Below, in pieces: positions 18,440 to 64,000 of a stretch of DNA of 64,000 nucleotides. A model generated the notes under the pieces. It was given only the letters and a program-made list of their open reading frames with translations, searched no databases and was not told where the DNA came from. Source of the DNA: Megalonaias nervosa (lineage: Eukaryota; Mollusca; Bivalvia; Unionida; Unionidae). The number at the start of each line of letters is the position of its first letter. Position 1 is the stretch's first letter. The stretch is from assembly GCA_016617855.1 (NCBI GenBank), contig JAECUM010011048.1, positions 33,735-97,734 on the forward strand. Direction: 5' to 3'. Made by a program: the position numbers and the translations under genes.

Positions 18440-19200
18440 GTGTATAATAATAATAATAATAATAATGAGGACTTTGTATAGCGCCTAATCTTTAGAAGCT
18501 CAAAGCACTTTACAACATTTGACAACACTTAAAAAAACATATTTAATGATATGATTACAAAATTAAAAACAAACACCACAAAAGTAGAAACAGAAAATAT
18601 GCTGTAAATATTTAAGGCAAGGATACATTATTAGGTCTTTAAGTCTGTTCTTGCAGTTGAAATAGGTGAGTTTTAAGAGCGCTCTTGAATGAGATCACTG
18701 TGTCTTTGTGTCTAAGTGCAGTGGGCAATTCGTTCCACGTTGCTGGGCCCTGGTATGCAAAAGAGCGTTGTCCATATGATTTCATCTTCATAGTGGGAAT
18801 AATGAGAATACGAGTGTCAGAAGAGGAGCGTAAGCATCTTGCAGGTGTGTACACATGGGTGAGGTCAGATAGGTATGTTGGACTGGAGCCCGTCAGTGAA
18901 ACGTAGCACAGAGAACAAATTTTGTGTTTAATTCTGGATCGTATGGATAGCCAGTGTAGGGTAGAGAGCAGGGGAGAGGCGTGCTCTGATCGTGGTACTC
19001 TAAGGATGATCCGAGCAGCTGCATTTTGAACTTTTTGAAGTTTCTGAAGTAGATATTGAGACGAACCAGACAGAATTGAGTTACAATAGTCCAGTCTTGA
19101 AAGTACTAAGGAACACACAAGTGTTTTAGTGGCATCAACTGAAAGATACTTGCGAATGGAGCTGATTCGTCTCAGCTCAAGATATATCCTATGGTATGCA
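18440..19200 (-). mobile_element. 5'-truncated CR1/L2-type LINE fragment with open frame
   Basis: The minus strand is open from about 19197 to 18639 (about 185 codons, no internal stop). It has motifs seen at the C-terminus of CR1/L2-group reverse transcriptases: 'LRRISSIRKYLS', 'VLSRLDYCNSIL', 'LLQKLQKVQNAAARII', 'LHWLSIRSRIKHKI', 'YTPARCLRSSSDTR' and 'GPATWNELPTALR'. A 3' untranslated region and a TTA-repeat tail (18447-18466) follow. No start codon is present because the copy lacks its endonuclease and polymerase core. The open frame suggests a fairly recent insertion. The exact clade is inference. Confidence 0.9.
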
Positions 19201-19580
19201 ACACAAACAACCAGTTACAATATATAACTGGCTAAAGTTTCATTAAGATATCTTTGGTGATTCAAACGTTATGCTCCAGACAAGGAAACATGTCACAGAA
19301 TTACATTATCCCATGCTTGGACCTTGACCCTGAGGTTGGGATCATGACAATCAACACAGTGTAGCCATAAGATATATATTTGGGCAGTCAAATATTTTCA
19401 GTGGTTCAAAAATTATACACCAGACAAGGATACAAGTCACAGAATTAGAGTCCTCCTTGCCATGACCTTGACCTTAAGGCAGGAATCCATACTATGGTAC
19501 TTGACTCACTGTCTAATCATGATATATACTCGGGCAAAGTTTCATTACAATGTTATGGGCCAGACAAATGTTAATGGACA
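19201..19580. repeat. Degenerate direct repeats with 'ccttgacc' core
   Basis: Units of about 145 bp with 'aaagtttcattaagatatct', 'gttatgctccagacaagga' and 'ggaccttgaccctgag' recur at 19205, 19370 and 19510 with drift. It continues the field at 17786-18439, split by the LINE. Confidence 0.6.
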
Positions 19581-21095: not shown

Positions 21096-24000
21096 CTGAA
21101 ACAGACAAAAGTCACAATTAAATAAACTCTTTGGTATGATAACTCTCCAAGTTATTTTTTATTAGAAAGAGACTAGTCTAGAAAAATACAAAGTTTGGAC
21201 TGAAGTCTGATTTTGTTACAACTTGTTTAAGGCTCATCTTATGTGACAAAAAGCATGAAAAACCCATGAAATAGGACTAATTACTCACTGACAAAATGTA
21301 AACTAATCCCATGAAATAAGGCTACTTCCCCATTCAAATAACAAACAAATCTCATAAAACAAGATCACATCCACATTCAAATAATGTAAATGAAACCCAT
21401 GTTAAGAGACTACTTCAACATTAAAAATATGCAAACATAACCCATGAGATAAGATCAAATTACTATTCAAATGATGAAAACAAATCTCATGAAATAAGAC
21501 AACTTCTACACTCAAATAATGTATACATAACCCATCAAATAAAACTACTTCCCCATTCAAATAATGTATACATACCCCATGAAATAAGACTAATTCCACA
21601 TTCAAATACTGTATACATACCCCATGAAATAAGACTACTTCCACATTCAAATAATATATACATACCCCATGAAATAAGCTTATCTTCCCCATTCAAATAA
21701 TGTAAATAAATCTCATGAAATAAGACTATTTCCCTGTTTGAATAATGTCAACAAACCCCATGAAATAAGACCACTTCCCCATCCAAAATAATGTAAACAA
21801 ATCCCATGAAATAAGACTACTTTCCCATTCAAGAAATGTATACAAACCGCATGAAATACAAGTACTTTCCCATTCAAAGAATGCATACAATATGCATGAA
21901 ATAAGATGATTTCCCCAATCAAATAATGTAAACAAATCCCATGAAATAAGAACACTTCATAATTTGTCTAAAGTAAACAAATCAAAGAAAAAAAGACCAC
22001 ATCCCCATTCAAGTAACATATACAAACTCCAAGAAATAAGACTACTTCCTCATTCAAAGAATGTAAATGAAACCCATGCAATAACATGAATTCCTATTTC
22101 AAATAATGTTGACCTAGTCAAGGTATTCTTACTAATAAGTCTAAATTGGAAGAAATCACAGTACATAAATCTTCATTAAATTATCTTCTGAAATCGATCA
22201 TTACAATGAAAGTACCATCAAATGTGAGTCATGATTCTATATTAGTCACATTCACCCAGTCACATAATATGAGACTCACTTAGTCCTAATGCAGAGTTCA
22301 AGAGGAGGCACCAACTGACCTTCATCTTCTGAGGGCCCTTTGTAGTGAACATTGGTTGTATCTGTGGGAGTAAATGAAATACTAACAATTCTTATTTTTA
22401 GTATCAATTTTTGTGCTTTTCTGAAAAAAATATCATTTAAATAAATAATTAAATCATTGTTGACGCATCAGATGGAAATGATATCCTATTGTCTTCACAG
22501 ATGGATCATAACAATAAGTACTGGATGGTTATTCTTACATCATCAGGCCAGGTTTAGCCAGTTTGACACACATCATTAAGCCAGTTTAAGCTGGTTTGAC
22601 ACACATCATCAAGCCAGTTTTATCAGGTTTGATACACATGATCAAGCCAGTTACAGCTGGTTTGACACACATCATCAAGCCAGGTTTAGTTGGTTTGACA
22701 CACATCATCAAATCAGTTTAAGCTGGTTTGACATAATATTGAACCAGTTTTAGCTGTTTTGATACACATCATCAAACCGGGTTTAGCTGGTTTGACACAT
22801 ATCATCAAGCCAGTTTTAGCTGATTTGATACAAATCATCAATCCCGTTATAGCTGGTTTGAGACACATCATCAAGCCAGTTTTAGCTGGTTTGACACATG
22901 TCATCAAGCCAGTTTTAGCTGGTTTGAGACACATCATCAAGCCAGTTTTAGCTGATTTGATACAAATCATCAAGCCCGTTATAGCTGGTTTGAGACACAT
23001 CATCAAGCCAGTTTTAGCTGGTTTGACACACGTCATCAAGCCAGTTTTAGCTGGTTTGATACACATCATCAGTCCTGTTATAGCTGGTTTGATACACATC
23101 ATCAAGCCAGTTATAGCTGGTTTGATACATATCATCAATCCTGTTATAGCTGGTTTGATACACATCATCAAGCCAGTTTTAGTTGGTTTGATACACATCA
23201 TCAAGCCAGTTACAGCTGGTTTGACAGATGTCATCAAGCCAGTTTTAGGTGGTTTGACACACATCATCAAGCCAGTTTTAGCTGGTTTGATACACATCAA
23301 TGAACCAGTTGTAGTTGGTTTGACACATATAATAAAGCCAGTTTTAGCTGGTTTGACACATATCATCAAGCCAGTTTTAGTTGGTTTGATACACATCATT
23401 GAACCAGTTTTAGCTGGTTTGACACACATCATCAAGCCAGTTTTAGGTGGTTTGACACACATCATTAAGCCAGTTTTAGTTGGTTTCACACACATCATCA
23501 AGCCAGTGTTAGCTAGTTTGACACACATCATCAAGCCGGTTTTAGCTAAGTTGACACACATCATCAAGCCGGTTTTAGCTAAGTTGACACACATCATCAA
23601 GCCGGTTTTAGCTAAGTTGACACACATCATCAAGCCAGTTTTAGTTGGATTGACACATATTATCAAGCCAGTTTTAGCTGAATTGATATATATCATCAGG
23701 ACAATTTTAGATGAATTTATGCACATCTGGTTTGAGGGGATATTCTACAGATATTATGAACTTCTGAGAGGGTAACAAGTATTTGGTAAAGTTGTTTACA
23801 TTTGCAACATGCATAATGGAGAGAGTATTGGCATACCTCTATGTTACTTTCATGCACTGTGACTGAAATTTTTTTTTACTTTGTACTTATAGAAATTGTA
23901 AATGATCTAAGAATGCAGTTATTGAAATAGGGAATGTATATGTTGCCAGACTGGACAATAACAGCTTCTGAAAGTGCAACAAATCAATTACAAAATATAT

Positions 24001-39500: not shown

Positions 39501-42500
39501 CAATAGGATTTGGCTAGCTCTGCAATTTAAAGGATTAAAATGCACAAAACACTCATCATACTCTATGAAAATATTAAAATCTTTTCTGTCCTGAATCCAA
39601 AAAGCTTCTATACAGGTTTGTTAAAACAGAATTAGATGGTAATTTTGAAATTATGTAACTGTTCCAGAAAATAGGTGACTGCCAGTAATACTTTCTGATG
39701 GCAAATCATTGCACCCTACTTTTTCAAGTCAAAGATTCAATAAATTCATTATTCTCTTCATAGCTTTAGTCTCAAATCTTCTTTAATAAAAATATGATTT
39801 TGTACTGTAGTTGAAAAACCTGAGGATTTTCCTAGCCTCACTGAATCAAACTACCCTTCAAATCTAAGAATTCTACTCTAAGCAAGATTTTGGAAAAGGT
39901 CAGCACAACTGATCGTTACAAATTGGTATCATTCATTTCTTTCTCTTCTGTCTGAAAAATACACCATCTATAATGAAACTTCCATTAGCAATACCTGTGA
40001 ACAAGCCATTAATGTAAACATATTTATACAATACTTTATAGGTCACAGTAGAATGTATTGGTACAAACGAAGGAAATTATGCCCCTTTCACTTACACAGG
40101 CACTTAGTGTTCCAGACTTACAATTTGCAATAATTTCATGCAGAATCAACCACCATTATTACCATACAGATTTTATGTGGTCAGTTCAAAATATAAACAA
40201 AAACATATTGTGCATTTACTTACGTAAGTGTAAGTTTGTAGTAAGAACACTGATTAACCTCTTAACCAATTAGTAACTTTATCACACTGATTAACCTCTC
40301 AACCAATTAGTGACTTTATCACATTTTTGGAAAACCTCATATAAGCATTAGTCATCTGCACTGAACTTTACCAGTCCCTTGTATGGCAAAGATCCCACAG
40401 TACCACATGAGAGGTCATGTTGAATAGGGTTAGGGCACCAGCAGTCACTAAACTCTGCATGTAAGTTTAATGCATATGTCTACCCATTTTTGCCTATAAT
40501 GATAAGTTTTTGTGCCTATCAACACGAGTTTTGTGTTGAAAAACTATACAAAGTTCATTATTTTGGGCAGAATATCAGCTGGGTCAAGTATGAAAGGGGG
40601 TGGAGTAAACAATTTGATTTGGGTAAAGGTTAAGTCAACTTTGCTTTCCTGTCATGCTTAAGTTAAATTTCATGGATAACAGTGATTATTTCACCTTAAC
40701 AACCATCCCAACCTCCTGTAACAAGACCGTTGATTATGATAAATAAACAATGTCATATTAGAGACCCAGTCCCATATTGTAAACATTTTGTTGACAACAA
40801 AAATCTAGTTCAATGTTACATCATTCAGACATTGTGCAATAACATTAAGATCTTACAGGTTTCCATGATCATTGTAAAGTCTGATTCATGTCAAGATACA
40901 GTCCTAGATCTGAGCTTCAGTTTCTTCCTCAAAGAATTTAGAGAATACAGAGCCTGATACGAGTATTATGGTTTTAAGTGAATACAGGGCCTCATATGGC
41001 AATTATAGTTTCAAGTGGATACAGGGCCTGATATGACAATTATGGTTTCAAGTGGATACAGGGCCTGATATGACAATTATGGTTTCAAGTGGATACAGGG
41101 CCTGATATGACAATTATGGTTTCCTCATATGACAATTATGTTTTCCACAGGACCCAATATGACAATTATGGTTTAAAATGGATACAGGGCCTGATATGAC
41201 AATTATGGTTTAAAATGGATACAGGGCCTGATATGACAATTATGGTTTCAAGTGGATACAGGGCCTGATATGAAAATTATGGTTTCAAGTGGATACAGGG
41301 CCTGATATGAAAATTATGGTTTCAAGTGGATACAGGGCCTAATATGACAATTATGGTTTCAAGTGGATACAGGGCCTGATATGACAATTATGGTTTCAAG
41401 TGGATACAGGGCCTGATATGACAATTATGGTTTCAAGTGGATACAGGGCCTGATATGACAATTATGGCTTCAAGTGGATACAGGGCCTGATATGAAAATT
41501 ATGGTTTCAAGTGGATACAGGGCCTCATATGACAATTGTGGGTTTAAGTGGAAACTAGAAGATCTGAAATAACAATTGTGGGTTTAAGTGGAGAATACAA
41601 GGCCTGATATGGCAAATGTGGTTTTAATAAGTGGAAACAGAAGAGGGTTATGTGACAATTGTGGTTTTAAGTGGAGACAACTGGGCCTGATTTGAGAATT
41701 GTAGATTTAAGTGGAGAATACAGGGCCTGGTATGTGAATTCTGGGTTTAAATGGAGAATACAGAGCCTTATTTAACAACTCTGGATTTAAGTGGTGCTTA
41801 CAGGGATGGATTACATGCCACTTGATTTAACAATTGTGGTTATAAGTTGAGAATGCATGGCCTGATTTGAGAATTAGAGGATTCAGGGCCTGATTTCAGA
41901 ATGGTGGGTTAAAATGGAGAGTACAGGATGCCTGATAAGACAATTCTGGTTTGAAGTGAAGAATACTAGCCCTGATTTGAGAATTGTGGGTTCAAGTGGA
42001 GAATACAGGCTGTCTTATATGACAATTGTGGTTTTAAGTGGAGAATATAGAGCCTGATTTGACAATGGTGGGTTCAAGTGAAGAATACTGGGCCTAATTT
42101 GAGAAATTTACCCTGAAGTGGAAAATACAGGGTCTGATAAGACAATGGTGGTTTTAAGTATAAAATACAGGGCTTCATATGACAATTGTGGTTTTAAGTG
42201 GAAAATACTGCGCCTGATATGGCAATTATAGTTTAAAGTGGAAATGTAGGGGGTGATATAATAATTGTGGTTTTAAGTGATGCCAACAGGCCCTCAATGA
42301 GAATTTTGACTTTAAGTGGAGACTTAAGGGCCTGATAGGAAAACTGTAGTCTTAAGTGGAGACAACAGGGCTAATGTAAGAATTGTGAGTTTAAGAGGAA
42401 AATACAGGGCCTGATTTGACAAGTGTGGGTTTAAGCTAAGAATATTGGATGCTTGATTTAAGAATAACTGGGGTTTTAAGTGGAAAATACAGGGCCTTAT

Positions 42501-45500
42501 ATGACAATTGTGGTTTTAAATGGAGAATATAGAGCCTGATATGACAATTGTGGTATTAAGTGGAGAATACAGCACCTGATATCACAATTATCATCTGAAG
42601 TGGAGAATACAGGGCCTGATATGACAATTGCAGTTTTAAGTGGAGAATACAGGTCCTGATTTGACCATTGTGGGTATAAAAAAAGAATACAGGCCATGAT
42701 TTGAAATTGTAGGTGTATTTGGAGAGTACATAGTCTGATTTTTCAGAACTATAGGTTCATGTGGAAAATACATAGCCTGTTTTTTCAGAATTGTGGGTTC
42801 ATGTGGAGAATTCAAAATGCCTAATAAAACAATTCTGGGTTTAAGTGGAAAATACAGGCCTGATATGAAAATTGTAGTTTTAGGTACAAAAAAACAAATG
42901 GGGCCCAGTATGACAATTGTGGGTTTAAGTAAAGAATACAGGGCCTGATATGAAAAAGATGTTTTTTCAGTAGAAAATGTAGAGACTGCTACAACAATTG
43001 TGGTTTTTAATAAGAATTACAAAGCTACATATTACATGTGGTTCTAAGAGGAGAATACAGAGCCAGATATGGAGGCTACAGGGCCTGATATGAGAAATGT
43101 GAATTAAAGTGGAGACTATAAAGGCCTGATATGAGAATTGTGGGTTTAAATGGAGAATTCAGGTTCTAATTTGACAACTGTGGATTAAACTGGAGAATAC
43201 AGGGCCTTATTTGACAACCGTTGGTTTTAGTGCAGAATAGAGGATGCCTAATTTGAGAACTGTGGGCTAAAGTGGAGAATACAGGGGCCTGATTTGACAA
43301 CTGTGGATTTAAGCAGAGAATACAGAGCCTAATATAATAATTGGGCTTTTAAGTGGAGAATATAGGGCCTGATTTGAGAATTGTGGTTTGAGGCGGAGAG
43401 TACAGGGCCTGATTTGACAATTATGGGTTTAAGTAGAATACAGGGCCTGATTTAAGATTTTTGTTTTGAAGTGAATAATTTAAATAAATAATTTCTAACA
43501 ACTACAGGTGACTCCACAGACTGATCATTAAACAGGAACTAATAATTGTTTAACTCATGCTATATATACTAATTTCACTTGCCTGAGGACACAATAGAAT
43601 TTCCTAAGGAAAAACCCAGGTCTTGGACTCAAATCCAAGTAAACATCTTGTTAGCTTCCTAGAATCATATCAAAAATAAGGTCGGCATTACCCTCAATCA
43701 TGGACACAAATAAACACACAATACAGACACACTGCTGTTACTGTTGCTGTATTTGAGTTTAATGTCACTTTACAGCATAGACATACATAACAATGGAAGA
43801 TACAATTAAATGTAGTTAAAAGTACATGTGAAATAAATTAGGTACTTTTAGCTACATTTAATGATGCTGACCTGAAAAATGACTCAGTTACAGATAGGAT
43901 AAAATTCACCATGCTGTGTGGAATGAACTATAGTTTCTGACATAATACCAAATAGCTCAACTTTGTGTGAGTGTGTGCCCATCTCTCAAAATATTTTGTA
44001 TGGTGTGTAATTAATGTTGGAGAGACCTTAAGTTGTTGTATGGGTGAATTTATTTTTGGTATATATCTTTTGTTGCTCTTGTTCTTTGATTTTATAACAA
44101 CTATATAAAGCACAGCAGAAGACGACATGGGTGCATTCTTTTTAAAAGTAGTTCCTAGTGCATGGGCACCATGACTGAGATGACCTTACTGAGACAACCA
44201 GACTGAGATAAGAAAAGTAAGGTTAACAAGACAGCTAGATTTCCCTACTGCTTGTGTGAGAATATTAAAGCATCTACTATGAATGAACAAATGTACTAGT
44301 AAACCTTAAAATTAGAACTTATGCTATATCAAAAATACTAATTTTATTGGAAATTTTTTCATCAGCACAAAAAATACAGTGAGTAGTAAATCCACAAACA
44401 TTATATTTATTTAATTTTGTTACAGTATTTACCTTTCATTCAAACTCTTAAAAAATATTTTCTTTTTTCACAGAAAAAATAAAAAGCCCTGGGTCAATGT
44501 AAGTTTTACTCAAACAGCATATTTTACTCAATGTATATAGTTTATGCAGACCTGCATTTGTACATTTTATCTAAAAATATTTCTATTTTATGAACTTTTT
44601 CTTCAATTATAAATTACAAATTATTCATCTGAACTCTATAGGCCTCAGATATACATCTGGTATCACTGTCTGATTTCTTCCGATACACATCTGGTATAAA
44701 CTTTTACCACCTCTATTAAAAGTTGAATTTTGGACAGATAAACACCCATATGATTCACCCAATCTTAAGACAGTAAAAAAACTGCATATTTTTCTAGGAA
44801 GAAGTAAAATTATAACAAAATCTAGGAATCAGATGAATTTTATTTATCAATTAAAACTTGTAAACACAACTGTAATACAAGTGCAATTCAAAATGGCACC
44901 CCCATAGCTGGAAACACATTTAAAGCTATTTAATTTTTAAAATTGCCATGAAATTGACATATTTATGTTGACTGAGGTCAGATGGCACAAAATAGTGTGT
45001 TTCTATTGTTAAATGGGTAAATGATTCTATGATTTTACATGGGTGCAAAACAGGTCTTGGAACTTTAAAAGATGTCCATTTGATGAATTAAATTTAACCA
45101 TCAAAAACCAGGAAAAATAATATTGTGGAAGTTTATACATCATGAATAAATTATATGTATTGAACGTACCAGTTCAGGTAATTTTTAAGTAACTGCTGAT
45201 AAATTAATAATCTGGAATTTATTCAGATTTTGGAGGGGTTTCCTCATGTTGCTAAAAATTAGTAAGATATGAAATGCCTGTTTATAATGGCTACAGATAA
45301 ACAATGTATATTTCTCTGCATTATGTATATATTCCTTATTGTATGGACACAAATGTTAAATTTCCTGAAATAAAAAGGCCAATCCAAAACCTGTGGTTCT
45401 AAAAAGTCAATGGCATGAGTTATCTCCCTTGCTTTCATTAAGTGAGAAGACAAGATACTTCAAATGAAAATAAACCGGATCATATTGCTTACTGTTCTAA

Positions 45501-47007
45501 CTATACTGAAAATCATTAACAGATGTAGACCATGCTCATAATGAAACTCATAAGGCATCTTCATGATACAAGTCTATTTACCAATTTTACTCAAAATCAG
45601 ATAAAATGTAGTCAGTAGAATTATAACAAATTGAACCAATCAGAACTAAGATAACCTCATTATTATAAATGGATCCCACCAAATATCAAACTCTTATGAG
45701 ATTTTGATTAAGCCTACATTCCAAGCTTGATCAGAAATATTTCTTCCAGAATGGTAACAAGATATAGGTTCACCTCATTAACATGTATCTTGCTTATTTT
45801 CAAATTTTTGTGAGACCATGAGCATGTTTATTCCAAGTTTGAACAAAGTCAGATTAAAAAAATATAGTTCAGTCAATCAGATGCAAGTTCAACTTATTAT
45901 TATGTACTTTTCTCACTCAATATAAAAATTTTATGAGATTTTGATGATATAAGGACTTATTCCGAGTTTGATCAAAATCAGATCAAAACCATAGTCTCCA
46001 GGGTAGTTACAAGGAAATGTTGATGGACAGATGGATGACAAACACAGCACAATACCATAATATAACAGGACATTATGGTCAAGTGAACTAAAATAGCACA
46101 AAATGGATACCAAGAGTATATGTTGTCCATCTAATTTATCTTGAGTATTTCACAGAGTAAGGTTTTTAAAAAACAGATTTTGCAGCTTGTCTATAATTAG
46201 AACTTTACTCTTTGTAGCAAAAGATAGAAAAATTAAAGAAACTTATTTTCAACCAGTAACATTGCCATACAAAGCATTTTCTGTAGATAAATCAAATATT
46301 CAGTTCTTAAAACATTTTTCTGATCAACAGAATTTGAACTCACCCTTCTACTGTCCTAGAGAGTGTGACTGAATATAATGACAAAACAACACCGCAGTAG
46401 CCATCAAGTTCAAACTGAAATGAAAATTAAAAAGAAGAATCTTAGTTTTGATAAATTCATCATGTTAGTAATATACTACTTCTAGGAATATTGTTAAGTG
46501 GCATACAACATGCATACTTTAATGCTTAGAAATGCCTTGAATGATAATATTCTCATTAAATGAAGATCTTGAATGAAAAAAAAAATTAAAATTCCATCCA
46601 GGATGCTATGAATATTGATTTTTGTGAGAGTAATTTTAACAAAAATGACATTACACCTTGTGATTATTCAAAAGGTGAAAACAGTTAAAATAGGTATAGA
46701 AAGAAATGAACAAAGAAAATATCATGTAGACTGACTTGATCCTTAGGTGAGTGTAATCACCTGCATTTTTCACCTTTGGGCAAGGGTAAGATGCACAGGC
46801 TTAAAATGCCATTATTCGACCACTATTTAAAATTAAATGTTGAGGACAGCATTACTGTTATAAAATTATGATACCAGGTAACAACAATATCGATTTACTC
46901 AGATGACAAAAATAATGATAATAATAAATGATAATGATGCTGCTGCTGGTGGTGATAATAATGTGGAGGGAGGATAAGAGAAAATGTTAATGCTCACCAC
47001 TCATGCC

Positions 47008-50700: not shown

Positions 50701-53700
50701 GCAAGATTAGCATAAAGCCCCATGTGCTAAGACTTATAGGCAATCTGGCATGTAGGGGGACAGATACCCACTGGGTTGCCAAAAAGAGGGAGCAAGATCT
50801 CCCATCATGTCTTTGGCAGTATTCGAAAAGACAGAAAGACAGTTGAGTAAGTCAACATCTGTGACAGAGTTTCTTGGATAAGTCAACTCCTCTAGGATTT
50901 TAGCAGCAAATGAGAAGATGGCAAAATGTTTGAAGCCCAAGTTTCCTGTTCCTCCTGCTCCATTTGTCCAGACAGTAGTCAGTGGCAAGATCCAGAGAAT
51001 CTGGAGAACAGTGTGTATATCACTTGGAGAACAGTGTGTATATCACTTGGAGAATAGTGTGTATATCACTTGGAGAATAGTGTGTATATCACTTGGAGAA
51101 TAGTGTGTATATCACTTGGAGAACAGTGTGTATATCACTTGGAGAAGAGTGTGTATATCACTTGGAGAAGAGTGTGTATATCACTTGGAGAACAGTGTGT
51201 ATATCACTTGGAGAAGAGTGTGTATATCACTTGGAGAAGAGTGTGTATATCACTTGGAGAATGTGTATATCACTCGGAGAATAGTGTGTATATCACTTGG
51301 AGAAGAGTGTGTATATCACTTGGAGAATAGTGTGTATATCACTTGGAGAAGAGTGTGTATATCACTAACCAATCTGGTTAAAAACTCAGTCTTGGAATGA
51401 AGAGTCTGAACTTCAACATCTGAAAACTTTAATGTTTTCCCCTGGCTTTCAATTGTTTAACAAAGAACAGGAGCCCAAGCCCCTTCCAACCAATCTGTGC
51501 AGGAACTGCATGGATTAAATAAATTGTACATCTTGTACATATAAGACAGTGTCCTCTCTCAGTGCATCTATAATGACAATGACTATGTAATGAAATGAAC
51601 AAAATGTACTAACCACCTGCAAATAAAACACTGAAATAGGTAAAATACTAAATTGTATTGAAATTCAACAGTAGCTGCAATAAAAATGATATTATGGACT
51701 GAATGCATACAACTAGACAGAATATGGTATGGCTGGTGACTAAGTTTACAATGGTGAAAAGAAAAATTTGAAAATTACTGATGCCAAAAAAAATCCCCAA
51801 ACAAACAATAAAGCTATCAAGGCTTAAAGCAAAGAATAGCCAAGAAAACAATAATAACTTTACAGGTAGATGGCTGCTATTTATGGCAGTATATCTATCC
51901 AATGTTGTTTGTACTGAGCAAAAACCTAAATGAAGCACAGCTAGGTTGGGAGATAATTATGGTATCTTTACAATTTCTATAGTCATTATGAGATATAGAT
52001 GGAAAAGATGAAAATTCGGCTTTCAAGAAGGACTAGATAAGTGCTAACATTACTTTACTCCAACTGTCTTGACACTAGATAACCTACTCGAGTTTCTCAT
52101 TCATAAAACACTGTACCAAACCAAATTTCTTTGCTCGGTTTTATTTAACTCTGTATGACTTTCTTTAAGAGATCATTGGCTGGCCACATACTCAGATTAA
52201 CGTTTGGCTGTCTGGGTTCAAATTAGTTTAAAATTGACCTTTTGGTACCAAAAATTTCTCTACTGTTCAGAGTTGTGGGGGTTTTGGTTTATCGAGTTAA
52301 AGTTTATTTAAATGCAAAAATGAAAAATGCATGACCAGAAACATATTTTGGTATCAAGGCCATTTTGGTTTACTGATGGTTTGACTGTATAATAATGCTG
52401 TTACATTAATAAATAAAACTGTTGTTAATCCAGTTCTAAAATGATCAAGACAACTACGTCCCCATTTTTGGCCATATGTAAATGAATAGTCCAAACTAAT
52501 CTTCTGCATCTTACTGTGAATACTTCTTCATTTGTAATGCTATTTTTCTCAAGAATCAAATATTGTAGTTTGCTCATTTTGTTATAAATGACCATCAACT
52601 TTACATTTTTATATACTGAATTGAAGCATCAAGTACATTCCATACATTTTTACATGTTTTTATTATGAATTTGTGGAGTCTGTCAAATAAATTCTGAATG
52701 CAGAATTCTGAATGACATTTAGAAACAAAACCTCAATACTCCAGCATGATTAACTGTTCAAAGTACCAACTATCTGGACAAAATATTTGTCTCCTACTAA
52801 GTGTGGATCATCAATACTATACTGTATGTGTGAAAATAACCACCTAACTGATGTATGTTCTGTTTTCAAAGGCCAGATCATCAATATTGTACTGTATGTG
52901 TGAAAATAACAACCTAACTGATGTGTGTTCTGTTTTCAAAGGCCAGATCATCAATATTGTACTGTATGTGTGAAAATAACAACCTAACTGATCTATGTTC
53001 TGGGTTACAAAGGCCAGATCATTAATACTGTACTGTATGTATGAAAATAACAACCTACCTGATAAATATTCTGCTTTACATAGGCCAGATCATCAATATT
53101 GTACTGTATGTGTGAAAATAACAACCTACCTGATATATGTTCTGTTTTACAAAGGCCTGATGATCAATATTGTACTGTATGTGTGAAAATAACAACTTAC
53201 CTGATGTATGTTCTGCTTTACAAAGGCCAGAAGATCGTCAAAATCTTTAAATGTGTATATCATAATCTGAAATGGAAACATATATCACAAGGTGAGAATG
53301 CAAGTTGTTCAAACAATTTACTTGTACTACCTCTGCTTCATGCAAAGTTTAAACAAAGCAAAGTAAATATTTGTGATAAAATATGAATTCCCATTTTTTT
53401 TATGTTCAGAGAGAGAGAGAGAGAGAGAATACTGTTGCTATATTTGTGATCAGTTTTCCAAAATAATAAAACATCAATGACAATTTCATAAAAATTTATA
53501 TACTAATAAAATAATGATGATACAATAAGGTCCAGTAGCCAGAGGCTTGGAATTAAAATATGATTAAAATGTTATAAGACTAGCACACACAAAAAAATTC
53601 TGGCTATCTGAACTATAACTTGCAAGATAGTATTAGCAGTTTGTGCAAAGTTACATCAGCTATAAATAATAAAGATCAGTGAAAGAAGTCAATATTAAAG

Positions 53701-55571
53701 CAACAAAAATCTTTCCTCAATTCCTTGTACAGGCTGAATGTCAATAGAAACCATGTTCATATTGCAAACCATAGCTGTCAGCTGGGTAGAAGCTGGGTAC
53801 AAGTCAGTATAATGCTTTAGCAGAATAACTTGCTTAGTTCATGTTTAATCCAAAAAGAAACTACCTACAGTTTTCAGCCTAGTGAAAATTTTAATTTGTT
53901 TTGTATTGTTATACTCTAAATGTTACAACTTTCGTCATTTTAGAGCCATAAAAAGTCAGCAAGTAGGTAAGAAGTAAAAAGGTATTTATTTTTTTCTGAA
54001 ATATATTTATGACTCAAAGTAAAATGCCTGATATCACCCTCAATGCCTGACTATGTATAATATTGATTGATGATGGCTCCCATTTTGCAACCAAAATATC
54101 CATTGGTAACCCTCTTGAAATGTATACTTTTTTAAAAGGCATAATGTAGGTGAAGTGAGAGAGAGAAAAGGAATGAGAAAAGTCAGAAAAATACAGTTCA
54201 GCAGGTGGAATGTGACACATCAATGTTTGAGTGCAATATCTGTATAAATAAATAATGTTTTCTACCATGAAATCATACTTTTAATTTTTATTTTCTTTAG
54301 AACAGTTTAAATGATGTTGCAAAAGCACAGAATGGAATGACTTGATATGTAAAAAAAAAGGCACTTAATTACCATTTTAAGTACATGTTTCAAGCATGAT
54401 GCATGCTTTTTCTGGGTTTTATATACTCATGCTCATTAGCAAAAGGTTCTGTTTACATCTTGGAATGAAAGGTGGATAATTAGGGTTCCACAACAATTTC
54501 CAGTACAAAATGGATAATGAAAATATGATTAAAAATGATGCTGTCATTATTATTATCACTCTTTTTGTTGTAATTGTTTTCTCATCTGGATCATTTAAAT
54601 GTTGTTTCAGAAACTGATGTGGTAATTTATAAAACCAATGTTTTGCTTAAAGGTCACTGGCCACCTGTATTGTACAAACATGTGATATTATTATAGTCAT
54701 AAACAAAACGCATTTGTTATGTATGCACACCATAAAAATGTTTAATTAGACTAAAAAATCCGCTTTTTTAAATGAAAAAATTATTCAGCAATCTCTGTAA
54801 ATAATCGGTAGTTTCTGCATGCCAAAAACGGATATGACGTACATTTATCCCTTCTATTCAACCTAGCCATTCAAGTGTTTAATTTCCCCATGTAAATGTC
54901 TGTGATATATCTTACGATCATGCTGTTTTGCACAGCAAATATGGTGCACTGTGTTGCATATGGATGTAACCAAAAGAGTGATGATGGGAAAAAGGGTTCT
55001 TTCTTTTTCCGAAAGACCCTTTCTGCCAGAAAAAAAGTAGATTCAAGCTGTGGGATCGAACAGGGTGAGGGATGGGAAAGTTGTATCATTTATGTCGGAT
55101 TATAGTCAATTTGGCCCAAAGACAATTCGGCCCAAATCGAAAGACAATTCAGCTCAACTTAACAATAGTTTGAACAAGTTCTTTTTCTTCAAACAACAAG
55201 TAGATACTATGTAAGACAGGTTTTAGGAAAAAAACTAAATTTAAACAAACTATCTTGATATTCTTTCAAAGAAAATAATCATACTTCATAATGTACATAT
55301 ATATGAGAGAAAACACAAACTGACATATCTTGCTCATTCTAATTAAAATATTTATATACATTTTTTATGCTAAAAAAATATATGCATCTGCACAACAACA
55401 TTCTCAATTTAAGTCTTTGGTCAAATTATCAATATTGATATATAAAACAATATTCTACAGAATACGTATACATTTTTCTAAGGGTAGTGTACAAGAGATA
55501 TTATAACAAATATATTTAATTTTAGGCTTCAGGTTGTAACACTGCTGCATATAATACACACTCGATTACAC

Positions 55572-61100: not shown

Positions 61101-64000
61101 AATGCAAATTAAGGCCAGAGTTACAAAATAATTATAGGTTATTCCACATGTCATGTGACTGCCAGTTCCAAAACCATTCAGTGCCACATGAATGGAGACC
61201 AATAATACTTAATACTTGGTCACTAACCTTCTTATTACATTGGCTTGTGACCATTAATAACACTACTTTTTTAAAATGCATTATCAGGTATAATGCTGTA
61301 CATACTGTCTTTAGTTATTTGCAAGAAAAATGGTTAAAAGAGAAGTTATTATTTAAAGTAAGCTGTTAACTTTCCTCTTAACTTTCATCTTAATTCATCA
61401 TTGTCTATGAAAGTGATCATACATAAGCTTCACTTCTTTTTTCTTTTCTTTTCCTTGTAAATAGCACTTCTATAGAATGATTTACTCATAATGATTCAAT
61501 CATGAACAGATAATACCAGTATTAAATTATCTTGACTTCAGTAACAATTAAGTAGATGTTCCTTGCTGATCAAAATATTGACATAGGTAGGGTAATGTAA
61601 TGCAATTGTGCTGAAGAAACAATGCAACCCTGGATTCAGTTTTAAGCACAACTGGTGATACTTTTAGTCACAATTAGATGACTTCGGAGATGTTTAATTA
61701 CTCTGCCCAACAAAGCACACTTCAGAGGATGAAAATGCATAAACCAAATTAGAAAGTAAACACAATCTAGACTTTTTAAATAGACAAGTTTGTGTGCACT
61801 GACAGCAACAACATGGCATCCCTAAATGACAGAGTGGAATGAACAATTTATTTTCTGCAAATTCTGTGAAATCTGTAAGGAATTGATTTTATTTTTAAAA
61901 CCATTCTGTTGTGATGAATCTCTATGGTATACATGTAATATGGAGAAAAAAAGAAATCCTGACAATGGAGGAAATGTATAAGACTGGCTGTATACAGGAA
62001 GTGGCTGTTGAAGAGAACTTACCTTGATTATGAAAGGTTGCACAATACTTACTATCTACTGAGTGGGATTTTGTTCTTGGAGAACAAAAGCTCTTGCAGC
62101 ATACAGGCTTGGACAGAGGCAAGAACACCACAAGGACCACCCTGAATGGACAGACACAAAACAGTTACATGTGTCAAACACGTTAATGTCTGTTCTCCAA
62201 CTCTCTGTAGTGAATATATTCTCTGACCTTAATAATACAACATTACTAAGTTAGATTAACTCAAATAGGGCCAGACTAATTCCTATCTGATGCTCATTAA
62301 AAAGTTGCAACTGTTATCTTATTATAAGTATGACCTTTACTGAAATTAGAGGGATTTGAGAGAAAACAAACCTTAAAGGTTCACTGAAAGGAGGGGGATT
62401 TGAGAGAAGTCAGACCTTAAAGGTTTCCTGAAAGGAGGGGGATTTGAGAAAAGACAGACCTTAAGGTTTACTGAAAGGGGTCGGATTTGAGAGAAGACAT
62501 ACCATAAAGTTTATTAAAAGGGGGGGATTTGAGAGAAAACAAACCTTAAGGTTTATTGAAAGAGGTCAGATTTGAGAGAAGACAGACCTTAAGGTTTATT
62601 GAAAGGGGAGGGATTTGAGAGAAAACAGACCATAAAGGTTTATTGAAAGGGGTCAGATTTGAGAGAAAACAAACCTTAAGGTTTACTGAAAGGGGTCAGA
62701 TTTGAGAGAAGACAGACCTTAAGGTTTATTGAAAGGGGTCAGATTTGAGAGAAGACAGACCATAAGGTTTATTGAAAGGAGGGGGATTTGAGAGAAGACA
62801 GACCTTAAGGCTTATTGAAAGGGGTCGGATTTGACAGAAGACAGACCTTAAGGTTTATTGAAAGGGGTCGAATTTGAGAGAAGTCAGACTTTAAAGGTTT
62901 CCTGAAAGGAGGGGGATTTGAGAGAAAACAGACCTTAAGGTTTATTGAAAGGGGTTGGATTTGAGAGAAGACAGACCATAATGGTTTACTGAAACGAGGC
63001 GAGTATGAGAAAAAACAAACTATAATGTTTAATGAATGGAGAAGGGTGTGAGAGAAAACTGATTTTAAATGTTTACAAATAGAATTAGCAGAGAAAGATA
63101 ATCATCTGATGATTTTTGAAAAATATTTATGGTTTAAGCCTTTCAGATTCTGTAATATTTTCTCTGCTATATGTTACCTAGATACAAATTAAGCAATGTA
63201 AAACAGTAAATCTCCACCTGTGAAATAATTTCTTTGGTATGGTATGTCTGCAGATAATTGTTCTTAAAAATTTAAGGGAACCATGATTGCTAGTAAAACT
63301 GGAATCAATCATATGTGACATAAATCAATGCTTAATATTATGGCATCTTAAATTTGATAACTTTTGTACAATAGGGAACAAGGCTCTGGACTTAAGTATC
63401 AGGCAAAAGATAGCTGGAATTAAATAAATTATTCAGAAACAATGGGGATGTCTGCTAAATGGTTCTCATACATATAAAATCATTCTTTCACTGTATGCTA
63501 TTCATCTTTTGTAGTAAATTAACATCTGCTTTAACTATATATAATAACTGTAGTTGGATTCAGTCTCTGCTAGAAGCAATAAAGGTGCCTGTTTCAGTGA
63601 AGAGATAAAGGTGCCTGTGTCAGTGAAGAGTTAAGGTGCCTGTGTCAGTGAAGAGTAAAGGTGCCTGTCTCAGTGAAGATATAAAGGTGCCTGTTTCGAG
63701 GAAGAGATAAAAGTGCCTGTTTCAATAGTTTTATTACTTTCAATTATGTAAAGATCTGAATGAATTTTTTGCCACAATGTATTTTGTAAGCCACAAACTT
63801 TACAAAATTTGTGAGCTTTAAGTACAGTTTATTCTGTAAAAAGAGCTTAAAGAAACCAATTGAACAGCAACTGGTTTAAAAGTGATTCAATACTCACCTT
63901 TTTCTGTACAATTCCAAATTTGAGACCAGGAGTATCACAGAAACAAAAGCTTTGTAATCTCCATTCATCATTAAAGTTCTGCAATGCTGAACCAAATACA
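21047..64000 (-). CDS. MINDY4: Probable ubiquitin carboxyl-terminal hydrolase MINDY-4, catalytic domain (partial gene, 11 exons)
   Basis: Eleven exons (63898-64000, 62053-62141, 60790-60888, 57563-57626, 53201-53266, 46344-46414, 36007-36070, 32122-32286, 27270-27450, 22280-22361, 21047-21095) join in phase to 343 residues plus a stop. Each has an AG acceptor and a GT donor, apart from the window-cut first and the last. Family knowledge: MINDY proteins are cysteine proteases that trim ubiquitin chains, with Lys48 preference shown for MINDY-1/2; activity of MINDY-4 is inferred. Visible catalytic residues are Cys in [12 protein letters not shown] and His in CSESHFS. '[20 protein letters not shown]' and the C-terminal 'WNGTEPLL' separate it from MINDY-3, which has a different middle and end. 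The frame is intact, so the gene looks functional. The N-terminal half and promoter lie beyond 64000. Confidence 0.93.
21096..22279 (-). other. MINDY4 intron 10
   Basis: This 1.2-kb intron is dominated by the 46-bp minisatellite at 21290-22090. The remaining sequence shows no other feature. Confidence 0.85.
21290..22090. repeat. 46-bp minisatellite in MINDY4 intron 10
   Basis: About 17 copies of a 46-bp unit containing 'attcaaataatgtatacata' and 'ccccatgaaataagactact'. Copies are well diverged at both ends. Minus-strand open frames here are repeat by-products. Confidence 0.93.
22280..22361 (-). CDS. MINDY4: MINDY4 penultimate exon
   Basis: Acceptor 'ctcccacag', donor GTGAGT. It completes a split Asp codon, then reads [20 protein letters not shown] and ELCIRT, ending with two bases of a Lys codon. 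'[13 protein letters not shown]' is a conserved MINDY-4 C-terminal segment; the acidic stretch before it is variable in the family. Confidence 0.93.
22535..23715. repeat. 33-bp minisatellite A in MINDY4 intron 9
   Basis: About 36 copies of a 33-bp unit containing 'gccagttttagctggtttga' and 'cacacatcatcaa'. The period is a multiple of three without stops in several frames. It opens 337-codon frames on both strands (minus 22713-23726; plus 22759-23775) with an 11-residue period such as [11 protein letters not shown]. Three consecutive copies near 23530-23630 are identical ('gccggttttagctaagttga'), a recent expansion. Confidence 0.95.
24300..25040. repeat. 33-bp minisatellite B in MINDY4 intron 9
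   Basis: About 22 copies of a 33-bp unit containing 'ggtcccttttagttggtttg' and 'atacgcatcatta'. It aligns with the unit of the array at 22535-23715 (shared 'ttttagytggtttgayac.catcat'), so the two share an origin but have homogenised separately. Confidence 0.93.
25215..25870. repeat. 35-bp minisatellite in MINDY4 intron 9
   Basis: About 18 copies of a 35-bp unit containing 'ctcatatcctatatgattcc' and 'tgtccttggctcaaa'. The central copies (25430-25600) are nearly identical and the edges are diverged. Confidence 0.95.
25983..26052. repeat. Imperfect 70-bp palindrome
   Basis: 'ggcctactgaattggggctc' on the left pairs with 'ttgaccccaattcaatagac' plus 'c' on the right around a 'ggtcaatgaccagggtgatg' centre. 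It could be a small foldback relic. Confidence 0.6.
27270..27450 (-). CDS. MINDY4: MINDY4 exon with catalytic His
   Basis: Acceptor 'cttgttacag', donor GTATGT. The 60 codons begin [20 protein letters not shown] and continue [20 protein letters not shown], then [18 protein letters not shown]. His in SESHFS is the predicted catalytic base of the MINDY fold. The 'YY.DG...Q...I.LT' block is highly conserved in MINDY-4. The exon ends on the first base of a split Asp codon. Confidence 0.95.
28515..28905. repeat. 33-bp minisatellite in MINDY4 intron 8
   Basis: About six regular copies (28515-28715) of a unit containing 'tagggaaatcccacctggtc' and 'acaatctaaggca', then three decayed copies at 28800-28905. 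An intervening 'attgatgtgatggaat' segment (from about 28765) also repeats sequence found just before the array at about 28470. This suggests the whole block duplicated. Confidence 0.88.
29008..30279. mobile_element. 1.27-kb DNA transposon-like element with inverted ends, superfamily unassigned
   Basis: The left end reads 'cagacctgccaaccctaacg' and the right end, on the minus strand, 'cagacctgccaactcttaca': 13 identical terminal bases, then partial similarity. Both ends are flanked by the same six bases, acatcc (29002-29007 and 30280-30285), a clean target-site duplication. Open frames inside are short and I recognise no transposase, so it is probably non-autonomous. A 6-bp duplication argues against hAT (8), mariner (TA) and piggyBac/Kolobok (TTAA). 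Confidence 0.8.
32122..32286 (-). CDS. MINDY4: MINDY4 exon, conserved '[15 protein letters not shown]' block
   Basis: Acceptor 'tcctttag', donor GTGATT (weak). It is phase 0 at both ends with 55 codons: [20 protein letters not shown], then [20 protein letters not shown] and [15 protein letters not shown]. The longest run of clear MINDY-4 identity is here. MINDY-3 has a different sequence after 'TG.AVSNV', which supports the MINDY-4 assignment. Confidence 0.95.
32772..32940. mobile_element. pogo/Tigger-like MITE
   Basis: A 169-bp element with the left end 'cagtgatccctctcttataa'. The right end, read on the minus strand, is 'gagtggtccccctctaatca'. Imperfect inverted repeats extend about 25 bp. 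It is flanked by TA on both sides (32770-32771, 32941-32942), the target duplication of the mariner/pogo group. There is no coding capacity. Confidence 0.75.
34265..34440. repeat. 60-bp tandem repeat, three copies
   Basis: Three diverged copies of a unit containing 'acagtcattaacatctgtgc' and 'cttctacattccatataaac'. Confidence 0.85.
34969..35695. repeat. Dispersed 0.74-kb repeat, copy 2
   Basis: Uninterrupted counterpart of 5703-6800, from 'ggtcttaaactaagtaaaca' to 'caaattaaatatacctaat'. It gives the empty-site sequence for the SINE in copy 1 ('tttcctcaattacgaacaaa'). Partial relatives lie at about 885-1250 and 43575-43730. Confidence 0.75.
36007..36070 (-). CDS. MINDY4: MINDY4 exon ending GAHGYCTQ
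   Basis: Acceptor 'gtttatag', donor GTATTT. The first base completes a split Gly codon, then [21 protein letters not shown]. The 'HGYCTQ' step just before the 'LLLTG' block is conserved in MINDY-3 and MINDY-4. Confidence 0.93.
36488..36836 (-). mobile_element. tRNA-derived SINE, family A, copy 2
   Basis: On the minus strand 'cagtggcctagtggttagag' fits a tRNA box A and 'gtttgaaccccgac' box B. The body 'gtgctagacatcactataaa' matches 6414-6750. The tail ends in a (CA)n run (36486-36525 on the plus strand as TG). The flanking tgagtttcatgt (36476-36487) and tgagcttcatgt (36837-36848) form a 12-bp duplication with one mismatch. Confidence 0.92.
37300..37461. mobile_element. Foldback (hairpin) MITE
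   Basis: Left arm 'gtttaatgtttttctgagtt' plus 'tatcatggtataaactgtca' is mirrored by right arm 'tgacagtttataccatgata' plus 'gactcagaaaaagacaacat' with few mismatches. The arms are about 50 bp and the loop about 60 bp. A lone right arm of the same family is at 37783-37835 ('ctgacagtttatatcaaaat'). Confidence 0.8.
37985..38445. repeat. 61-bp minisatellite in MINDY4 intron 6
   Basis: About 7.5 copies of a unit containing 'catgaccccatttcctgtca', 'taaacagattagtctaaaca' and 'atctccatgtataacactat'. The first two copies are almost identical; later ones are diverged. Confidence 0.93.
38686..38857 (-). mobile_element. tRNA-derived SINE, family B, 5'-truncated copy
   Basis: Read on the minus strand it matches the body of 10325-10582: 'gcttggccagtgtgggtaca', 'gtgctgaaaaatgacattaa' and a CAA tail. 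It lacks the tRNA box A head. The flanking aaaattgacctga (38673-38685) and aaaactgacctga (38858-38870) form a 13-bp duplication with one mismatch. Confidence 0.88.
39243..39420 (+). mobile_element. Possible tRNA-derived SINE relic, third family
   Basis: 'gtggtggttcggtgggtaaa' plus 'gtgtttgacctgttaccaga' reads like a tRNA head with box A, and 'gcatgttctattcctacc' sits where box B should be. A segment 'cttcagcaaggtacctttct' follows. Ends are not defined and no duplication was found. Confidence 0.5.
40935..43470. repeat. 37-bp minisatellite with homogenised core
   Basis: About 65 copies of a unit containing 'aagtggatacagggcctgat' and 'atgacaattatggtttc'. Copies from about 40990 to 41530 are nearly identical. 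From 41540 to 43470 the unit drifts ('agaatacagggcctgatttg' / 'acaattgtgggttta') and varies in length. Confidence 0.95.
43575..43730. repeat. Dispersed repeat, partial 3' copy
   Basis: 'cctaaggaaaaacccaggtc' through 'aaatccaagtaaacat' and a final 'cacacaatac' block match the 3' third of the repeat at 34969-35695, with strong divergence. Confidence 0.5.
46344..46414 (-). CDS. MINDY4: MINDY4 exon '[20 protein letters not shown]'
   Basis: Acceptor 'atttcag', donor GTGAGT. It begins in phase 0 with [20 protein letters not shown], then TVE and two bases of a Gly codon. It corresponds to the MINDY-4 segment between the helical 'F...I.Q' exon and the 'HGYCTQ' exon. The family often has a Gly-Cys-Ile-Leu run where this sequence has Cys-Gly-Val-Val. 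Confidence 0.9.
47010..47064. repeat. (TA)n microsatellite
   Basis: About 27 TA units, abutting a foldback element. Confidence 0.97.
47050..47216. mobile_element. Foldback MITE next to the (TA)n run
   Basis: The left arm 'ggttatagtatgtacactgt', 'atcaatgatataccatgaga' and 'tgttcattaaaagaaaatga' pairs with the right arm 'ccttttaatgaaaaatttat', 'ggtatattattgatacagca' and 'tacatactatacatatat'. The arms are about 75 bp with roughly 80% pairing and the loop is about 12 bases. Its end merges into the TA repeat, as expected for insertion at TA. Confidence 0.8.
47695..47731. repeat. (TC)n microsatellite
   Basis: A TC dinucleotide run, followed by a short duplication of 'cctttggtcggtttgactt'. Confidence 0.97.
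48445..48481. repeat. Short near-perfect hairpin
   Basis: 'caatttgatataccaatagt' plus 'actggtatatcaagttg': 15-16-base arms around 'atagtac', one mismatch (t/g) near the base. Confidence 0.8.
50497..50547. repeat. Perfect 22-bp inverted repeat with 7-base loop
   Basis: The left arm 'tttcttcctttaaactgctg' plus 'ag' (50497-50518) is exactly complementary to 50526-50547. Pairing continues weakly outward for about four more bases (one G-T). No U-run follows and there is no gene context, so function is unknown. Confidence 0.9.
51000..51366. repeat. 23-bp minisatellite in MINDY4 intron 5
   Basis: About 16 copies of 'ttggagaacagtgtgtatat' plus 'cac'. Copies alternate between agaacagt, agaatagt and agaagagt, and one copy is shortened near 51262. 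Three units (69 bp) restore frame, so the same 23-residue repeat appears in all three plus-strand frames. Confidence 0.95.
52809..53200 (-). repeat. 70/71-bp minisatellite derived from a MINDY4 exon and its splice donor
   Basis: Five imperfect tandem copies (starts about 52809, 52878, 52948, 53019, 53090) plus the true exon end repeat the last roughly 30 bases of the adjacent MINDY4 exon and the first roughly 40 bases of the following intron. On the minus strand the copies still read 'FVKQNIYQ', 'YVKQNIYQ' or 'FVTQNIDQ' against the real FVKQNIHQ. The two copies nearest the exon keep a GTAGGT donor after CAG; the three farther copies have TTAGGT. Confidence 0.9.
53201..53266 (-). CDS. MINDY4: MINDY4 exon duplicated in part by the adjacent array
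   Basis: Acceptor 'ccatttcag', donor GTAAGT. Phase 0 at both ends, 22 codons: [20 protein letters not shown] and HQ. Its position and the 'L..F......I.Q' pattern match the MINDY-4 segment after 'D.L.ET'. It is chosen over the repeat copies because it alone has an acceptor, an intact 5' half and a consensus donor. Confidence 0.9.
54941..55090 (+). pseudogene. THAP zinc-finger N-terminus, frameshifted
   Basis: An ATG at 54941 opens [20 protein letters not shown], with the Cys-x4-Cys spacing that starts THAP domains. Within the following T-rich run the reading frame shifts. The conserved 'FPKDPF' and a downstream Lys/Trp-containing stretch are in the -1 frame (about 55005-55065), then a stop. 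The distal Cys-x2-His pair was not found. A splice donor-like 'gggtgagg' near 55066 leaves open that this was a first exon. One missing base, by mutation or sequencing error, explains the shift. Confidence 0.6.
55574..55643. repeat. (GA)n microsatellite
   Basis: A GA run of about 70 bases with one interruption, inside the Kolobok-like element. Confidence 0.97.
56467..56635. repeat. Duplicated 85-bp segment with internal palindrome
   Basis: Two copies of a unit with 'aagtgtgccgattttttctt' and 'aaatcagccgacataaggaa'. In each, 'gccgatttttt' faces 'aaatcagccgac' as a small hairpin. Both copies lie within the Kolobok-like element. Confidence 0.75.
57563..57626 (-). CDS. MINDY4: MINDY4 exon '[21 protein letters not shown]'
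   Basis: Acceptor 'tattgcag', donor GTGAGT. One base completes a split Leu codon, then [20 protein letters not shown] and T. In vertebrate MINDY-4 the matching segment also ends in a '.D...ET' motif before the next helical exon. Confidence 0.9.
58071..58111. repeat. (TA)n microsatellite
   Basis: A TA dinucleotide run of about 40 bases with related TATATAC sequence on both sides. Confidence 0.95.
58545..59585. repeat. 20-bp AT-rich satellite in MINDY4 intron 3
   Basis: About 50 copies of 'aatgaataaatgctaatggt'-type units, often alternating gaataaatgctcatggtaat and ggataaatgctaatagtaat, which gives a 40-bp dimer and longer mixed periods. A 114-120-bp block containing 'agcaattaataattgctaat' recurs near 59060, 59220 and 59400. 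Confidence 0.95.
60790..60888 (-). CDS. MINDY4: MINDY4 exon '[18 protein letters not shown]'
   Basis: Acceptor 'tttgttgtag', donor GTAAGT. It finishes a split Tyr codon, then [20 protein letters not shown] and [12 protein letters not shown], ending two bases into a Leu codon. The 'I.WRAG...RAVV.L' pattern is a conserved MINDY-4 segment. Confidence 0.93.
60889..62052 (-). other. MINDY4 intron 2
   Basis: This 1.2-kb AT-rich intron has no repeat array or element that I can recognise. Confidence 0.8.
62053..62141 (-). CDS. MINDY4: MINDY4 exon with catalytic Cys
   Basis: Acceptor 'ctgtccattcag', donor GTAAGT. The 29 codons begin [20 protein letters not shown] and continue SKNKIPLSR. The Cys in GGPCGVLA is the predicted nucleophile of the MINDY family, at the head of the catalytic helix, and the Q of SVQA lies in the same conserved helix. 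Confidence 0.95.
62345..63060. repeat. 43-bp minisatellite in MINDY4 intron 1
   Basis: About 17 copies of a unit containing 'ggggtcagatttgagagaag' and 'acagaccttaaggtttattg'. Two subtypes (ggggtc.gattt and ggagggggattt) alternate irregularly. Confidence 0.95.
63575..63725. repeat. 26-bp minisatellite in MINDY4 intron 1
   Basis: About six copies of 'aaaggtgcctgtttcagtga' plus 'agagat'. Confidence 0.92.
63898..64000 (-). CDS. MINDY4: MINDY4 exon, cut by the window end
   Basis: Donor GTGAGT at 63892-63897. The visible 34 codons read [20 protein letters not shown] and [14 protein letters not shown]. This is the start of the MINDY-4 catalytic domain, where 'FG.....F..EW..QSF.F' leads into 'L.(Y/F)GIVQKKGGPCG'. 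The acceptor is beyond the window. Confidence 0.93.

Follow-up and report, generated by a model that had tools for sequence, protein, structure and literature searches.

A minisatellite beside a MINDY4 exon in Megalonaias nervosa, apparently built from the exon end and its splice donor

In the 64,000-nucleotide stretch of Megalonaias nervosa DNA analysed here (the window), a minisatellite adjoins a coding exon of a gene on the minus strand, and its units resemble the end of that exon followed by the start of the intron. This arrangement raises the questions of where the array came from, what its donor-like copies could do to splicing, and whether the array serves the gene that hosts it. The explanation that we regard as likely as a whole combines duplication of an exon border, mostly normal splicing with low-level competition from decoy donors, and an array that is carried along as a tolerated passenger.

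The identity of the host gene was established by rebuilding it from the window. The joined model comprises 11 exons with a single open frame of 343 codons plus a stop; the window ends with the contig at exon A, and the model covers MINDY4 without its N-terminal part. The exons, including the two that flank the intron with the array, are as follows.

21047 to 63999, minus strand: MINDY4 catalytic-domain exons A to K, 343 aa, 10 introns, all GT-AG
63999 to 63898, minus strand: exon A, truncated by the contig end
62141 to 62053, minus strand: exon B
60888 to 60790, minus strand: exon C
57626 to 57563, minus strand: exon D
53266 to 53201, minus strand: exon E, 66 nt, 22 codons, phase 0 in and out; ends CAG/GTAAGT, and its last 29-30 nt are part of unit c0 of the array
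46344 to 46414, minus strand: exon F, the next exon and the acceptor for exon E or any decoy
36070 to 36007, minus strand: exon G
32286 to 32122, minus strand: exon H
27450 to 27270, minus strand: exon I
22361 to 22280, minus strand: exon J
21095 to 21047, minus strand: exon K

The model matches positions 4-344 of 344 of PF13898, the full MINDY-3/4 domain, with an E value of 1.2e-127. Of the 1466 candidates in a protein search confined to sequences of 0.55-1.75 times the query length, 338 had E <= 0.001, and among the best 120 of these 338 the best named matches are MINDY-4 / FAM188B of animals. High-identity homologues among the matches listed include annelid and mollusc proteins, from Lamellibrachia and Plakobranchus (60% each over the whole query) and from Lottia (69% over 58%), as would fit a gene of a lophotrochozoan; MINDY-3 (9rmd) was the single solved relative found. 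The proposal of the initial annotation that the array lies next to a MINDY4 exon is borne out by this domain and these best named matches. When exon E was taken alone, neither Pfam nor the PDB nor the family search of the assembly returned a MINDY match, and its assignment to MINDY4 rests on where it lies in the gene model, on its phase and on its alignment. Exon F was first recognised by a weak match amid chance ones, and its assignment is supported by its splice sites, phase and position in the protein. The family search of the assembly (11 matches) also revealed MINDY-3/4-like exons on two other contigs, three on C5007 and one, weak, on C23881, which perhaps belong to MINDY3 or to a second copy.

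Tandem Repeats Finder, applied to the 64-kb window, places the array at 52806-53231 with a period of 71, 6.0 copies and 91% matches. The unit of 71 bp consists of the last 29-30 nt of exon E and the first 42 bases of the intron. One of the six units is the authentic exon end itself, which holds the strongest donor of the array, and five additional copies extend into the intron over 52807-53159 with spacings of 71, 71, 71, 70 and 70. The units were cut at their donor and then aligned on the minus strand.

52807 to 53230, minus strand: whole array with a 71-bp period, c0 (exon copy) plus c1-c5 (decoys)
53160 to 53230, minus strand: c0, authentic end of exon E with the start of its intron, GTAAGT donor at 53200-53195
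53089 to 53159, minus strand: c1, decoy, CAG/GTAGGT, GT at 53129-53128
53018 to 53088, minus strand: c2, decoy, CAG/GTAGGT, GT at 53058-53057
52947 to 53017, minus strand: c3, dead donor CAG/TTAGGT, hexamer at 52987-52982
52877 to 52946, minus strand: c4, dead donor CAG/TTAGGT, hexamer at 52917-52912, one nucleotide deleted from the exon-derived part
52807 to 52876, minus strand: c5, the distal edge, dead donor CAG/TTAGGT, hexamer at 52847-52842, same 1-nt deletion as c4

From c0 to c5 the last 'exonic' bases are 53201, 53130, 53059, 52988, 52918 and 52848, and the first intron-side bases are 53200, 53129, 53058, 52987, 52917 and 52847. Over the whole unit, c1-c5 are identical to c0 in 66/71, 62/71, 65/71, 65/72 and 63/72 alignment columns, and in the exon-derived part in 26/29, 25/29, 26/29, 26/30 and 27/30. 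Compared without gaps to the last 30 bases of exon E, c1-c3 match at 27, 26 and 27 positions and c4-c5 at 21 and 22; the best score among 300 simulated 450-mers is 19, and the best ungapped match elsewhere in the intron is 17. The alignment agrees almost to the base with the initial description of five 70/71-bp copies that each carry about 30 terminal coding bases plus the start of the intron, and the donors that it had placed near 53058, 53129 and 53200 are the first intron-side bases of c2, c1 and c0. The GTAGGT of the two nearest copies and the TTAGGT of the three farther ones were likewise read in the aligned units. At 21-27 of 30 positions against at most 19 in the simulations, the shared block lies far above chance, and the proposed origin from the exon came through this comparison.

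The direction of copying is indicated by the homologues. Among the 120 homologues listed, 20 were aligned with the gene model, of which 19 cover exon E and one (P0074) is a fragment that lacks it. In all 19, exon E has no internal gap and no insertion at its end, and several homologues have gaps of one to three residues slightly inside exon F. The individual covering homologues share 0 to 7 of its last 10 residues (0 in P0068). Because the exon end aligns without insertion in 19 of 19 homologues, we take the exon to be the source of the array; judged by this alignment, the end of exon E is old MINDY4 coding sequence from which the array was made. In the assembly of 2,190,679,487 bases in 54,709 contigs, all six matches to the 71-bp unit fall in this array, a rarity that holds within the limit of a search that skips very common words. 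The upstream flank (561 bases, 53240-53800) has one full-length match, which is itself, and four matches of 30-33 bp to its simple-repeat part. Neither the 71-mer nor this flank led to a second allele of the array in the assembly.

The edges of the array point to how the first copy could have arisen. The intron past c5 reads ...TTGATGATC and then continues with other sequence, and exon E reads ...TTGACGATCTTC ahead of the TGGCC of the unit. These two join ends have in common a short imperfect stretch, TTGAYGATC, with TC at the breakpoint, and such short similar ends suggest slippage or exchange between them. A tandem duplication that reached 29-30 nt back into exon E and 42 nt forward into the next intron would have carried exon end, donor and intron start along together in a single unit of 71 bp, and later tandem rounds, presumably by unequal exchange or slippage, would have produced the five extra units. 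The initial annotation had invoked unequal exchange seeded at the exon-intron border. The border origin stands, given the ancestral exon end and a unit found at this locus alone; unequal exchange itself is a reasonable inference, but slippage or microhomology repair may instead have been at work. The copies share their changes in a nested way, with G at +4 in c1-c5, T at +1 in c3-c5 and a 1-base deletion in c4 and c5. This nesting probably reflects stepwise tandem copying, in which, since c3-c5 have the +1 T in common, the donor was probably lost once before the final rounds and then copied.

The strength of the donors was scored with a human matrix that was not trained on this species and that ranks the real sites of this gene poorly, as seen from the very low values of the donors of exon C (-0.41) and exon G (0.90). 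By this rough guide the log-odds are 8.76 for c0 and 7.15 for c1 and c2, and the two decoys outscore 7 of the 10 real MINDY4 donors, those of exons A, E and F being above 7.15. With the same human matrix, the value of 7.15 is reached by none of the 354 GTs at 52800-46440, the rest of intron E, and by 7 of the 3541 minus-strand GTs in the window, including exons A, E and F and the two decoys. By this measure the c1 and c2 donors do not appear to be the usual weak look-alikes. The A-to-G change at +4, present in every decoy, weakens the decoys relative to c0. Of the five further units, two keep the donor-like CAG/GTAGGT and three do not, and the 'ladder of decoy donors' of the initial annotation is retained as anatomy for c1 and c2, the three other rungs being dead.

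Use of a decoy would lengthen exon E by 71 (c1) or 142 (c2) nt. In translation the stop is the 18th codon after exon E for every decoy, with 17 extra residues, in line with the earlier expectation of 71 bases per step and an early stop. The CAG/GTAAGT of c0 is both the strongest donor and the first on the transcript, and exon E would mostly be spliced normally; c1 and c2, judging from their score, would be minor competitors for U1 snRNP, and c3-c5, with a donor that lacks GT, would be inert. Six exon junctions lie downstream of the decoy stop, and a premature stop in such a position is expected to trigger nonsense-mediated decay (NMD) because of them. Decoy transcripts would then be lost by this route or would yield a protein without exons F-K, which make up ~60% of the modelled domain. 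The catalytic histidine region of the MINDY family, which we take to fall in exon I, would be lost on decoy use. Most probably the array is no regulatory device but a passenger that the gene tolerates at a small cost.

Donor-carrying minisatellites are known from human genes. In the ABCA7 intron 18 VNTR, the minisatellite begins at the exon 18 donor, the first of its GTs being the authentic site; splicing from the donor of the next unit leaves one unit in the mRNA, with a frameshift and a premature stop, and the unit-retaining transcripts rise under NMD block, as outlined in PMC5954066. The MINDY4 array resembles this system in that the authentic exon E donor is itself part of the array, in c0. 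The ABCA7 unit, as described there, is 25 bp long, begins at the GT and is present in about 12 to about 427 copies, whereas the unit here has 71 bp and five extra copies, carries ~30 coding bases, and has live donors in two of the extra copies only. The splicing of ABCA7 was measured, and the MINDY4 array is known from its sequence. In the human IFI6 (G1P3, 6-16) minisatellite, two downstream units act as donors and give rise to three mRNA species, according to PMC4526556. The likeness lies in tandem units that offer donors beside an exon; the IFI6 variants described encode different isoforms, whereas use of the MINDY4 decoys would bring an early stop, and IFI6 is another gene in another animal group. 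The IFI6 minisatellite with its multiple splice donors is reportedly that of Turri et al. 1995, with a unit of 12 bp.

More distant parallels concern competing donors and duplicated borders. Competing 5' splice sites of the DOK7 type, under SR protein control (PMC5585400), are similar in that an exon has two serial donors and splicing from one of them shifts the frame of the transcript; the abstract of that report mentions no tandem repeat, whereas in MINDY4 each competitor is a copy of the authentic donor. New splice sites are likewise placed in a gene by tandem duplication when introns are gained through genomic duplication (PMC3443670) and where variable repeats lie at the junction of exon and intron (PMC2812944). 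In the cases outlined there, new introns come from duplicated exonic or boundary sequence; in contrast, the MINDY4 duplication created no new intron, an existing border having been duplicated and its donor multiplied within the old intron E-F. With its tandem units, authentic donor and donor-like copies, the array is, by its anatomy, a donor-carrying minisatellite of the ABCA7 / IFI6 kind. Among the titles and abstract openings of the literature matches listed, no earlier description of it was found. It is a new example of a known principle, which ABCA7 and IFI6 had already demonstrated at the transcript level, and for this reason it founds no new class of system. Its interest lies in a natural series on one transcript, in which the real donor is followed in order by two copies that are live and three that are dead, all with similar flanks. 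Splicing workers build duplicated-donor substrates by hand, and the MINDY4 series comes close to these. It also shows how minisatellites that grow in a genome rich in repeats can extend into coding sequence and leave the reading frame intact.

The surroundings are rich in such repeats. From the tandem-repeat table 26 minisatellite arrays were picked by hand, with dinucleotide runs and some short low-copy rows omitted, and together they cover ~22% of the window. When the 19 arrays of the gene span were placed at random in 20,000 trials against the 20 internal exon borders, with at least 20 bp required on each side, at least one border fell inside an array in 92% of trials, with a mean of 3.8 borders against the one observed. 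An array over an exon border is unsurprising, given that 92% of random placements produce one. Another contig, C1386, which overlaps the window at 62049-64000 with about 94-98% identity and includes exons A and B of MINDY4, may represent the alternative haplotype or a closely similar copy. The 43-bp array between these exons has 18.9 units in C1386 and 14.9 here, and the two exons lie 173 bp farther apart in C1386, a difference which suggests that arrays in MINDY4 change length. An abalone gene provides a parallel, with an intronic minisatellite of differing repeat numbers mentioned in PMC6905558.

Several other explanations were weighed against this background. The array could have come first, as an intronic or dispersed satellite that then reached into or replaced the exon end, and the wealth of arrays of other origin in the window speaks for such a course. 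We find it scarcely credible: the exon end aligns in place and in length with MINDY4 of other animals, and no other locus of the unit was found in the assembly within the limits of the search. The dispersed version, with unit matches confined to this array in that search, was dropped as unsupported. It is also quite unlikely that the number or order of the repeats is an assembly artefact caused by reads shorter than the array. The division of the assembly, which gives one allele of the array, into its 54,709 contigs and the different length of the 43-bp array on the overlapping contig C1386 are consistent with such an error, but the six units differ by several partly nested substitutions that simple stutter would not make, and their derivation from the exon is independent of their number. 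A functional role as a regulatory dimmer of MINDY4 would have an SRSF1-like factor balance shift use towards c1 and c2 and thereby send the transcript to NMD, with the number of live copies setting the strength. The two high-scoring decoys 71 and 142 nt downstream, with the same early stop from either, could serve in this way, and SRSF1, when bound immediately upstream of a competing donor pair, suppresses the intron-distal member in hundreds of human genes (as summarised in PMC5585400). However, three of the five copies have dead donors, the live ones carry the weakening +4 change, and no conservation or selection was seen at the array; in ABCA7, moreover, retention of one unit is described as constant across VNTR lengths and it was exon 19 skipping that rose (PMC5954066). 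We therefore hold the dimmer to be unlikely, and its copy-number-variable form, with alleles that differ in live decoys and so set the share of early stops, and with selection having favoured the spread of the dead-donor unit, to be very unlikely.

The remaining alternative is an incipient mini-exon, in which c2 would be spliced in as an in-frame cassette of 45 nt that encodes an altered repeat of the exon end.

53059 to 53103, minus strand: potential pseudo-exon of c2, 45 nt, open and in frame, from the weak, acceptor-like CATACAG to the c2 donor

The acceptor-like TTATTTTCACACATACAG is present in each unit, with one base different in one of them. In c1, c2 and c3 the cassette is open, of phase 0 and 45 nt long, with live donors in c1 and c2, and the c2 cassette would leave an intron of 97 nt from the exon E donor. 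Against this, the acceptor scores 0.12 on a rough matrix, below 9 of the 10 real MINDY4 acceptors and matched by 472 of 3465 minus-strand AGs; the donor of the supposed mini-exon is comparable to real sites and its acceptor is not. The c1 cassette would need an intron of 26 nt, those of c4 and c5 measure 44 nt, and the donors of c3, c4 and c5 are all dead. Open frames are expected here, as the exon-derived part is open by descent. Between c1-c3 and the exon 9 codons differ, 6 of them with a change of amino acid, without clear coding constraint, and an insertion at this junction occurs in 0 of the 19 homologues that cover it. The pseudo-exon was accordingly reduced to a weak rival, its acceptor being near background and its frame inherited from the exon, and we rate the mini-exon as highly improbable.

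Two further patterns within the units were considered and set aside. The count for coding constraint covered c1-c3, c4 and c5 being left out for their frameshift, and its 3 synonymous codons among the 9 that differ, compared with 18 of 90 possible single changes, are too few to say. Between c3 and c4, 24 of 30 bases are identical in the exon-derived part and 42 of 42 in the intron-derived part. Variable columns number 8/30 in the exon-derived versus 8/41 in the intron-derived part across the six units (Fisher p 0.57), and 8/30 versus 6/41 across the five decoys (p 0.24), and a faster change of the exon-derived part was dropped on these tests.

Other repeats of the window were noted in passing. 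An array of 37-40 bp units and its decayed relatives at 40945-43457 make up about a quarter of intron F-G (46343-36071). An open frame of 191 aa on the minus strand at 18639-19214 resembles, by eye, the terminal part of a LINE-type reverse transcriptase ORF. A 33-bp array has long open frames on both strands, of 343 aa at 22713-23744 (minus strand) and of 347 aa at 22732-23775 (plus strand), which a unit length divisible by three allows and which are probably not coding.
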